Of a stretch of DNA of 64,000 bases, positions 38,801 to 63,396 are shown piece after piece. Position numbers and translations under genes: made by a program. Location of the stretch: the NCBI RefSeq assembly GCF_019890935.1, contig NZ_CP082333.1, positions 398,001 through 462,000 on the forward strand, written 5' to 3'. This DNA is from Exiguobacterium acetylicum. GTDB lineage: Bacteria; Bacillota; Bacilli; Exiguobacteriales; Exiguobacteriaceae. The number at the start of each line of letters is the position of its first letter. Positions within the stretch are counted from its first letter, which is position 1. Under the pieces are notes generated by a model. It searched no databases. It was not told the origin of the DNA and worked only from the letters and a program-made list of their open reading frames with translations.

Positions 38801-39283
38801 ATGGTAATAGGCATCGTGTGTGCCGTATTGGCAGGGATGTTGATCAGTTTACAGACAGTATTGAATGCTCGGATGAGTGACGCGTTCGGTGCTTGGGCGA
38901 CGACGACGCTGGTCTTCTTCGTCGGCTTCATCGGAGCAAGTGTCACGTATGTTCTGTTTCGTGGTGGAACAATCGGGCAGATCCAAAACGTATCGCCACT
39001 CTATTGGTTTGGTGGACTTGTCGGTGTCGGCGTCGTTTTTTGTGTCATGCGTGGGATTCAGTTGCTTGGTCCGTCCGTCGCCATCTCTGTCGTTCTGATT
39101 TCGCAGTTAAGCTTTGCTCTTGCTGTTGATACGTTCGGCTGGTTCGGTTTACCACAAATTGATTTATCGTTCGGTCAGCTCGTCGGTCTCGCCGTCATGG
39201 TATGTGGGATCTTCGTTTTGAAACGGTATCAAGTCGTCGCGCCGGAAGAGAGAGCGAAAGATATACCGAAGCAAGTCTCTTAA
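38801..39283 (+). CDS. YdcZ-type (DUF606) half-size DMT membrane protein, second copy
   Basis: The 160-residue protein also begins with VCAVLAGMLISLQTVLNARMSDAFG and has about five membrane segments, ending in a charged tail. It resembles the first copy in layout (LQxxxNARL/M near the N terminus, FGWFG or GWFG near the end), so the two may form a heterodimer. AAGGAGG lies before the ATG. Confidence 0.82.
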   Translation: MVIGIVCAVLAGMLISLQTVLNARMSDAFGAWATTTLVFFVGFIGASVTYVLFRGGTIGQIQNVSPLYWFGGLVGVGVVFCVMRGIQLLGPSVAISVVLISQLSFALAVDTFGWFGLPQIDLSFGQLVGLAVMVCGIFVLKRYQVVAPEERAKDIPKQVS

Positions 39284-39312
39284 AAAATCTGATACTAGTT
39301 CGATCGACTGAC

Positions 39313-39462
39313 GAACGTTTCTGTCATCCTCGCTTTCCGCAGGCGGGAGGTAAGCCGCGTCATCCCGCATTCCATGCGATTTGCCGGGTCTTACCTGACC
39401 CTGACGAAAGCGCGACTCGCGCTTTCTTTCCCTGCAGGAGTCGAGGATGAACACTCACGTTC
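39313..39462. repeat. Structured intergenic element (palindromic, about 150 bp)
   Basis: Nested inverted repeats: outer GAACGT/ACGTTC, next TCATCCTCG (39324-39332)/CGAGGATGA (39442-39450), next CCGCAGG/CCTGCAGG, inner GGTAAG/CTTACC, and a side hairpin GAAAGCGCG-ACT-CGCGCTTTC. The layout (CTTTCCGC...GTCTTACCTG...GCAGGAGTC) resembles intergenic repeats I recall from Bacillales genomes. No coding potential was found. It may be a mobile repeat or a structured RNA. Confidence 0.65.
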
Positions 39463-39476
39463 TAGATTGACTAAAT

Positions 39477-39524
39477 AAAACATGCGCGTTTCCCGCTAAT
39501 TCGATCGGGAGATTCGCATGTTTT
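39477..39524 (-). terminator. terminator of the MFS gene, possibly bidirectional
   Basis: Arms AAAACATGCG and CGCATGTTTT are separated by about 28 bases containing CCCGCTAATTCGATCGGG-type pairing, with T-runs on both sides. Confidence 0.65.
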
Positions 39525-39543
39525 TATGTGTTGTGACTTGATC

Positions 39544-40764
39544 TCAATCGAATAGATGAACCATTCGTCTTCCGAAGTAAAGCGAGAGGACAATGATGAG
39601 AAGACCACAGTACAACATGATTGTCGTGATCGAAACGTGAAACGACAGTAGAAACGAGAGGAGCGCGTAAGATAATGGAATGAGACCGTTTGACGCGGCA
39701 TTGACGACACTCATGACACGTCCCATCGTCTGTTCCGCACACTGAGACTGGATGAACGTAATGAAGCGAATATTGATGATCGAAGAAAGGACACCAAGTG
39801 ATAACAGGATGATCAGGTACAACGAAATCTGTTGGACTTGACTAAGCAAGAAGAGAAGCAGACCTAAGGCGCCAATTAATCGGACCGATGAGGTAAGCCC
39901 ATTTGCTTTCGTCTGTGTAAAACCACTCCAGAGCGCCCCTCCGAGCATTCCCATTTGATAAGCACCTTGCATATAACTTAAATCCATCGCATCTCCTTGA
40001 AGCACATCATGAACGAGTAAGGGAATTCCGAGTAAGAGTGGCCCAAAGAAAAAGAAATTGACACAGATGACAAGAAAAAGTGTCTGCTTGAGTTGCTGAA
40101 AGTGAAAGACGTAATGTAGCCCTTCTTTTAGTTCAAAGAGAGCTGAATGCTGACGTGCTCGCTTGACCTTAGATTCACGAATACCATACGTGAAGAGAAG
40201 CGTCAGACAGAGTGTTCCGAAAATCATGAGAAAGACGTACGAGTAAGAAGAATGGCTGAGGATGACTCCACCAAGAATCGGACCTGAAAAGAGAGCGATT
40301 TGATTAGATGTCTGAATCAATGAATTGGCTTTAGTGAGCTGTTCTTTCGAAACGAGTGTAGGCAGTAAGGAAGCATTCGCTGGCGAAAAGAATGCATCCA
40401 CACTACCGAATAAAAAGGCGAATACTAAAATCGTCAGCAATGTAAGCTGATCGGCATGAAGTAACACGAGGAGGCAAATTATAAAACTGATCCGTAGACC
40501 GCTTGAGATACGCATGATCGTTGAACGTTTATAGCGATCGGATAAGACGCCACCGAACAACATGAGAAAAATACGGGGTAACAAGGTGGCCATGAGGACG
40601 AATCCGAGATATGACGCCTGGTTTAGCGTATGGATGACATACCATTGTTCAACAAACAGATAGGTTGATAGGGAGAGGGCGGAGCACATACCGGACCCCC
40701 ATAAAAATAAAAAAGATCGATTTTTAAACAGTGATTGTTGCGTATCCATTTCAACAGGTAGCAT
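39544..40764 (-). CDS. Major facilitator superfamily transporter
   Basis: The 406-residue protein has about twelve hydrophobic segments, the loop 2-3 motif GGVLSDRYKRSTIMR (about 75-90) and VDAFFSPANASLLPTLV, typical of MFS_3/macrolide-efflux-like drug exporters. It is encoded 14 bases after the ArsR-type regulator. The ATG at 40764 follows GGAGGTG; the ATG five codons later is possible. Confidence 0.85.
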   Translation of the reverse strand: MLPVEMDTQQSLFKNRSFLFLWGSGMCSALSLSTYLFVEQWYVIHTLNQASYLGFVLMATLLPRIFLMLFGGVLSDRYKRSTIMRISSGLRISFIICLLVLLHADQLTLLTILVFAFLFGSVDAFFSPANASLLPTLVSKEQLTKANSLIQTSNQIALFSGPILGGVILSHSSYSYVFLMIFGTLCLTLLFTYGIRESKVKRARQHSALFELKEGLHYVFHFQQLKQTLFLVICVNFFFFGPLLLGIPLLVHDVLQGDAMDLSYMQGAYQMGMLGGALWSGFTQTKANGLTSSVRLIGALGLLLFLLSQVQQISLYLIILLSLGVLSSIINIRFITFIQSQCAEQTMGRVMSVVNAASNGLIPLSYALLSFLLSFHVSITTIMLYCGLLIIVLSLYFGRRMVHLFD

Positions 40765-42195: not shown

Positions 42196-42334
42196 CGACT
42201 CCTTCGCTTGGTTGCAAAAGGAGTCGCCGCTTTTTATCAACCAAAGCTTTCGCTTTGCTGGTCGTAGCACCTTGCTATGCGCAGGTTGCTGGGACGTCAT
42301 CGATCCAGATCTCTCGGTCCACTCTTGATAAGGG
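42196..42334 (-). ncRNA. SAM (S-box type) riboswitch with terminator upstream of msrA
   Basis: On the minus strand the P1 arms TTATCAA/TTGATAA bracket the conserved blocks ATCAAGAG, CAGCAACC, AAGGTGCTA and GACCAGCA, in S-box order (42334 to 42233). The GGAGGGA block is changed (ACCGAGAGATC), so this is a variant of the SAM-I clan. A terminator CGACTCCTT/AAGGAGTCG with TTTTCGTTTTC follows (42226-42196). High SAM should turn msrA off. Confidence 0.8.
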
Positions 42335-62886: not shown

Positions 62887-63036
62887 ATGGTCTCTCGTCA
62901 GCGACAAGAGACCATGAATGATTCGAACGTGGACTCTTATCTGTCAGCTTAGTAGCTGCAAGAATTAGCACCGTGCCAAAAGGTCGGTTGCTGCGACATC
63001 GTAGGGCTTGTCCCTCCGTCTGCTCTTGATAAGAAT
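62887..63036 (-). ncRNA. SAM-I riboswitch with terminator upstream of mtnWXBD
   Basis: On the minus strand the blocks CTTATCAAGAG, ACGGAGGGAC, CAGCAACCGACC, GGCACGGTGCTAATTCTTGCAG and GATAAGAG appear in canonical S-box order (63036 to 62933). A terminator follows: ATGGTCTCT...AGAGACCAT (62915-62887) with TTTTTTT. High SAM should stop transcription. Confidence 0.95.
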
Positions 63037-63240: not shown

Positions 63241-63396
63241 CTCTTATCGCGAGTTGGCAGAGGGAATTGGCCCGATGACGCCGCAGCAACCGACCACTAG
63301 GCACGGTGCTACATCCAACAGACGTTTCGTCTGAGAGATAAGAGGACGCAGTGACTTTTCTGCGCCTCTTTTCGATGACGAAAAGAGGCGCTTTTT
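63241..63396 (+). ncRNA. SAM-I riboswitch with terminator upstream of mtnK
   Basis: Blocks CTCTTATCGCGAG, GCAGAGGGA, TTGGCCCGATGA, GCAGCAACCGACC, GGCACGGTGCTACATCCAACAG and GAGATAAGAG follow S-box order (63241-63344). The terminator pairs GCGCCTCTTTT with AAAAGAGGCGC (63362-63391), followed by TTTTT. Confidence 0.95.

Follow-up and report, generated by a model that had tools for sequence, protein, structure and literature searches.

ISfinder lists variable direct repeats for the IS1182 family. According to a passage of PMC9208149, IS1182 is one of the families over-represented where genes converge. The bacterial MITEs named in a passage of PMC3733652 include bcr1, NEMIS, RUP and ERIC, and the abstract of that paper gives REPs a length of 20–40 bp. 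The lineage described here shares with the IS1182 family (NCBIfam NF033551) a transposase above the family cut-off, TIRs, and internally deleted derivatives, yet the structured module is found in one IS1182 lineage only, and simple insertions occupy the position of a terminator hairpin of the host, no target duplication having been observed. Like the bacterial MITEs, the module-bearing elements are short, non-coding, multi-copy, intergenic, and TIR-bearing when complete, but they have a conserved multi-branched core, their own terminator, and a terminator-linked placement, and the copy studied here lacks TIRs. Extragenic palindromes in many copies are also a feature of REP/BIME repeats with their RAYTs, from which the module differs by its much greater length and by having no linked Y1 transposase. 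Nested helices with two-sided changes recall the structured RNAs of Rfam; however, no family matched at the gathering level, and none was credible at E up to 10. We conclude that the element is a real and unusual transposon-derived module, and not a demonstrated RNA gene.

The folded element behind ydcZ and its site in relatives

The window is the whole 64,000-nucleotide stretch of Exiguobacterium acetylicum DNA that was analysed. Its copy of the module, a structured palindromic element at 39313–39462 (+), is recognised by its fold, by a covariance-model match (39309–39465), and by two-sided changes. The minimum free energy is −71.0 kcal/mol against a mean of −45.2 (sd 4.2) for dinucleotide shuffles, none of 200 being as good (z −6.15). 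An outer helix pairs GAACGT (39313–39318) with ACGTTC (39457–39462), and all six of its pairs show two-sided changes among 28 copies. The main helix, supported by both fold and two-sided changes, joins the 5′ side TCATCCTCG ... CCGCAGG (39324–39343) to the 3′ side CCTGCAGGAGTCGAGGATGA (39431–39450): TCATCCTCG (39324–39332) pairs with CGAGGATGA (39442–39450), and CCGCAGG (39337–39343) pairs, with a bulge, with the CCTGCAGG stretch at about 39431–39438. An inner helix of GGTAAG (39349–39354) and CTTACC (39390–39395), supported in the same two ways, encloses one more small hairpin. The side hairpin GAAAGCGCG-ACT-CGCGCTTTC (39406–39426), with arms at 39406–39414 and 39418–39426, has two-sided changes at seven of nine pairs. 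All of these parts are given on the plus strand.

These helices lie where the first-pass annotation had placed them, and two of its other statements hold as well. The element was said to have no coding potential, and the only frames across it, two overlapping ones of 82 and 96 aa, give no sign of being genes. A separate terminator was said to follow, and it can be seen by eye directly 3′ of the element at 39477–39524 (+), as AACATGCG/CGCATGTT with an inner CCCG/CGGG stem and then a T-run; the terminator scan and the strict hairpin finder (loops up to 12) missed it because its stem is interrupted. The element lies between two convergent open reading frames. The host gene, for the second YdcZ-like protein (38801–39283, +), has its stop codon 29 bases before the element, and the convergent gene (39544–40764, −) encodes a putative MFS-type transporter, judging by its sequence.

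The element-bearing tract (39263–39557, no strand assigned) is present in the own genome (G000) and in G017, and occupies the place of about 90–100 other bases in five co-linear relatives, namely the last ydcZ codons and the terminator. At all seven other aligned orthologous ydcZ loci the element is missing, and all seven have a hairpin after ydcZ (six by the strict finder, G006 by eye). Five of these element-free loci keep the same downstream gene, G016 and G010 have another one, and for nine more distant ydcZ loci (L103–L111) the comparison stopped at the gene. The window site thus occurs in occupied and empty states, but the flank was replaced, so it is not a clean insertion. The tract replaced is longer than at the MITE sites described below. 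At the end of the second YdcZ-like gene (39250–39283) the protein reads DIPKQVS, whereas element-free relatives have a DQVERVS-type end, and the arrival of the element therefore changed the end of the protein.

Copies in Exiguobacterium and carriage by IS1182 elements and MITEs

The first-pass annotation had proposed a blastn and covariance-model search, which yielded seven blastn matches to the element in the own genome and 49 model matches there (E ≤ 0.01). By blastn, 17 of 19 Exiguobacterium genomes, the own included, have matches; by the model, all 19 do, with 13 to 78 each. The model (R1) was built from 28 copies (alignment A1) out of 35 loci, with the near-duplicates L008, L016, and L025 and the partial or divergent L006, L007, L023, and L034 omitted and L022 retained. 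Six of 19 genomes of the sister genus had model matches, with E-values of only 2e-5 to 6e-4. Plasmid and phage collections gave no match to a 171-base query, and a search of the open-access literature, with subscription papers mostly outside its scope, returned no paper on the repeat, including for six literal strings of it. The window copy is thus multi-copy, non-coding, and short, as MITEs are.

The module is carried by IS1182-family transposons in G005. There the element precedes a transposase whose score is above the NCBIfam IS1182 cut-off of 270 (313.8 bits for a partial frame; 390.2 bits), and all six IS1182 loci of this genome (three whole, three cut by contig ends) have the module inside their left end. 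The G005 element is 2,052 bp long, is bounded on either side by the TIR GAGGGTGACTCA, contains an open frame of 521 aa, and is ordered TIR, element, terminator hairpin, transposase start, second terminator, TIR. Its family transposase and TIRs place it in the IS1182 family. A 366-bp MITE of G012 aligns to both ends of this IS (73.5% in the 1–252 region and 63.5% in the 271–364 region), and none of 1000 shuffles of the sequence internal to the TIR scored as high as its right end. The TIR-bearing relatives, which match an autonomous IS1182 at both ends, are accordingly classed as IS1182-derived MITEs; these TIR-flanked MITEs (366 bp and about 242 bp) carry the module and a terminator.

Both TIRs (at most 3 mismatches in 12) are found in 21 of the 49 copies of the own genome, with a median length of 242 bp, and the own genome has no match to the G005 transposase at E ≤ 1e-20. 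The window copy has no recognisable TIR, the best candidate having 5 mismatches in 12 on either side. It is therefore filed as a relative of the MITEs and not as a MITE, and only the homology of its module ties it to the IS1182 lineage. The order of element and terminator hairpin at the window is the same as in the IS1182 left end and in the MITEs. The first-pass annotation had considered a mobile non-coding repeat, and this part of its interpretation is borne out by the 49 model matches, by the polymorphism of sites among relatives, and by carriage in IS1182-family elements and MITEs.

Loss and duplication of host terminator hairpins

Gaps between genes were classed with a simple codon-based gene caller. 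The 49 own copies lie in 31 convergent, 18 co-directional, and no divergent gaps, against 10, 38, and 9, respectively, among 57 background gaps. IS1182 copies of G016 also lie between A- and T-runs at gene ends.

Twenty stretches of G011 were taken at interpolated places, and 17 of the 49 own sites were resolved. The hairpin comparison covered 13 MITE sites, 12 of the 17 resolved ones and L132, with L071, L072, L074, L083, and L129 omitted as composite or without a clear right TIR. At two of the 13 sites the relative carries a MITE too. At 10 of the other 11 the element-free relative has a strict hairpin, compared with 38 of 1000 random 70-nt windows, and at the eleventh (L138) an imperfect hairpin was seen by eye. 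Between the aligned flanks the relatives have 26 to 49 bases, mostly the hairpin itself. At the L132 site six relatives have a hairpin (GAGAAG..CTTCTC type), and the MITE sits exactly between the bases that flank the palindrome in G006 and G017; in G016 an IS1182 occupies the position of the stem-loop at this same site, again between A- and T-runs. One further site is shared by the MITE L093 and the G016 IS1182 copy L159, and L015/L147 is a weaker case of this kind. The evidence for hairpin replacement comprises 11 sites in one genome, with IS1182 at two of them. The flanks of 21 TIR-bearing copies have no direct repeat longer than 9 bases (one mismatch allowed); they are A/T-rich, but pairing them with shuffled partners gave as high a complementarity in 328 of 2000 cases, so that it is not above the control.

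Another trace is left by a composite unit some 360 bp long, which contains the module and has ends like AGATTGTAGACAAA. Among five own candidates, three (L072, L074, and L082) are flanked by two copies of the terminator hairpin in direct repeats of 23–30 bases, L071 has a repeat of 13 bases, and L092 has none. G002 carries such a unit at the L132 site (in L322), between hairpin-bearing direct repeats of 29 bases. L072 and L074 keep the terminator stem, which argues against plain replacement. With simple MITE and IS1182 sites lacking the hairpin and some composite units having two, both loss and duplication therefore occur. The repeats at the composite unit look as if a whole host hairpin had served as the target duplication. 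Elsewhere in the own genome (2900309–2900683), a MITE-type core (L087) and a copy of the divergent Bacilli type (L142) face each other around one terminator.

The account that we favour and regard as probable is that a mobile module of the IS1182 lineage in Exiguobacterium goes to host terminators and substitutes for them, the TIR-less window copy probably being an older member. The full context would be an IS1182 element consisting of left TIR, module, terminator, promoter region, transposase, second terminator, and right TIR, and the MITEs would be internally deleted forms of it, reduced to TIR, module, terminator, and TIR. Their targets would be the intrinsic terminators of the host, chiefly where two genes converge. 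A simple MITE or an IS1182 copy would end up in the position of the terminator hairpin, and the composite unit of about 360 bp would come to lie between two hairpin copies. Because the element would bring its own terminator, the host gene would stay terminated and the insertion would be tolerated. The window copy would have taken the position of the YdcZ-Crp-YdcZ operon terminator. It most likely belongs here through homology and position, not through TIRs, and may have arisen in the same way as the MITE and IS1182 insertions.

The MITEs were presumably moved by the IS1182 transposase. Insertion itself may remove the hairpin, for example through staggered cuts at both feet of an extruded hairpin, with repair that duplicates or loses it. 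As a tentative proposal, the reaction could be an IS1182-type exchange of hairpin for hairpin, in which the transposase cuts the extruded terminator hairpin at both feet and the folded element takes its place. Depending on repair, simple MITEs and IS1182 copies would be left without the host hairpin and the composite unit with two copies of it. The conserved module would be foldable DNA of the element itself that is recognised during this exchange, and a like module would be used with other transposon ends across Bacilli. If simple MITEs and IS1182 copies truly replace terminator hairpins, this would be a mode of insertion that leaves the neighbouring genes terminated. It would explain how hundreds of copies at gene ends are tolerated, and would connect DNA hairpins, in a way open to testing, with how a DDE transposase chooses its targets.

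Alternative origins and possible selection of the fold

The chief rival to the IS1182-lineage account is that the module is an old palindrome of Bacilli, self-standing and mobile or hitch-hiking, which was captured by the IS1182 elements and MITEs of Exiguobacterium; the window copy would then have moved or been copied by other means and never have been part of an IS1182 unit. This origin is suggested by the distribution of a divergent form of the module, to which three own copies (L124, L137, and L142) belong. Blastn with one of these three as query, applied to 398 sampled Bacilli genomes from 145 genera, found it in at least 68 genomes and 29 genera, a lower bound, since two candidates were scored per genome. 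The likeness to intergenic repeats of Bacillales that the first-pass annotation had noted is thereby substantiated, and the comparison names a widespread, unannotated palindromic repeat of Bacilli. A second model (R2) was applied to 15 genomes, 14 of which had been selected because they carry the divergent form. Each genome gave between 4 and at least 150 matches, three of them reaching the limit of 150 scored candidates. Single copies fold well (z −2.7 to −5.4 for five copies), 4 of 18 consensus pairs in their alignment (A3) vary on both sides, and Rfam at E up to 0.1 gave nothing credible for eight divergent-form loci. In G390, twenty copies (L271–L290) are framed by inverted ends of about 30 bp (AAAGGCTGTTTT..GCAAC and its complement) that, by eye, are unlike the Exiguobacterium ends.

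Capture would also fit the window-type copies without TIRs and the survey of other IS1182 elements. None of 24 other IS1182 loci in five genomes has the module inside the IS, although one (L163) has a decayed copy just outside, and the module is therefore not a general part of IS1182. Against capture, the module of the G005 element and that of the 366-bp MITE are enclosed by TIRs that are perfect or nearly so, and both ends of the IS have their match in the MITE; furthermore, no other mobiliser was found, and Y1 transposases are not near the module. We consider capture rather unlikely.

The first-pass annotation had left open whether the element is a repeat or an abundant structured RNA. The second half of this interpretation has fared less well than the first, as two-sided changes are abundant, yet the wobble test does not favour an RNA. 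When the minimum free energy structure of the window copy is laid on A1, 34 of its 56 pairs have changed on both sides and 90.6% of cells are paired. There are 119 two-sided cells, compared with 36.5 (sd 6.5) in shuffles and 13–23 with partners slid; these cells are not independent events because the sequences are related and several are orthologues. RNAalifold, used without the window structure, gave 37 pairs, 21 of them with two-sided changes. Together with the strong fold, these changes would suit a structured RNA (a 3′-UTR element or small RNA) with a host function, selected as a transcript, and so would the position immediately behind a stop codon and ahead of a terminator. By a lax test, a terminator-like site follows within 110 bases in 9 of the 11 non-MITE copies of the own genome, compared with 129 of 600 random windows. 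The copy L068 lies at the same place in several genomes. At L061 divergence is lower in paired than in unpaired columns, which is not so at L068.

Selection as RNA predicts an excess of G-U on one strand. Pairs were derived without G-U, and departures to G-U and to A-C were then counted. The plus-derived ratios of G-U to A-C events are 15:8 in A1, 6:14 in the own MITE-type copies, and 2:7 in G390, and the ratio in A3 is 3:4, so that the sign differs with the set, G-U and A-C departures are about equal, and none of the ratios is clear; the minus-derived ratio in G390 is 0:6 (p 0.03). An earlier count, biased by allowing G-U pairs on the plus strand, had given 35:14 for A1 and 13:25 for the MITE set (39 of the 49 own copies, picked by motif and length). 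With no consistent strand preference, nothing singles out an RNA. The reverse strand of the element also folds equally well or better, presence at the window site varies among close relatives, and the scan found no promoter-like site just upstream of the element. Rfam has no family at the gathering level for the element, and at E up to 10 only rsmX touches it, on the minus strand, with 14.3 bits against a cut-off of 56, which is not credible.

Orthologous copies compared in situ have also lost pairs, and at most sites the broken pairs exceed the two-sided changes. At L061, 52 pairs are broken on one side, 18 are wobble, and 12 are two-sided; at L068 the numbers are 31, 10, and 2. The exception is L019/L020/L024, with 11 broken and 16 two-sided. 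Overall, a structured RNA selected as such is improbable. The two-sided changes could also stem from selection on DNA hairpins or from template switching between arms, and the fold may be kept for mobility as DNA and not as RNA. A repeat of this kind can mislead RNA discovery, because its strong two-sided changes come with no clear evidence of selection as RNA.

Y1_Tnp genes, which occur in 9 of the 19 Exiguobacterium genomes and in 11 of 15 genomes from a second set that carry the module or the divergent form, would be consistent with a REP/BIME-type repeat mobilised by a Y1 (RAYT) transposase. Y1 loci with an element within about 1.5 kb, however, number 0 of 19 in the genus and 1 of 20 in the second set, the one case being a fragment that the element seems to have entered, and the element has 150 bp instead of the 20–40 bp of REPs. 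With no Y1 transposase linked to the element, this candidate was rejected as very improbable. A chance cluster of palindromes, which the first-pass annotation had tied to a single copy without covariation, is refuted by the copies and is next to impossible in view of the fold, the spread over all 19 genomes of the genus, and the two-sided changes.

Among the Y1 loci, a divergent-form copy in G303 (L266) appears to sit within a disrupted Y1 transposase frame. Single-copy long Y1 transposases of several Bacilli (L254–L265), some of them flanked by GGGGTCAGGCACC/GGGGTCTGACCCC-like palindromes, resemble by eye RAYTs with repeats of their own. Elsewhere in the window, a sub-threshold SCARNA18 match inside the convergent gene (39587–39688; 27.6 bits, cut-off 40) is surely due to chance. 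Three SAM riboswitches score above the gathering level, at 63241–63344 (+), 62934–63035 (−), and 42231–42334 (−), and two of them are divergent and about 200 bases apart.
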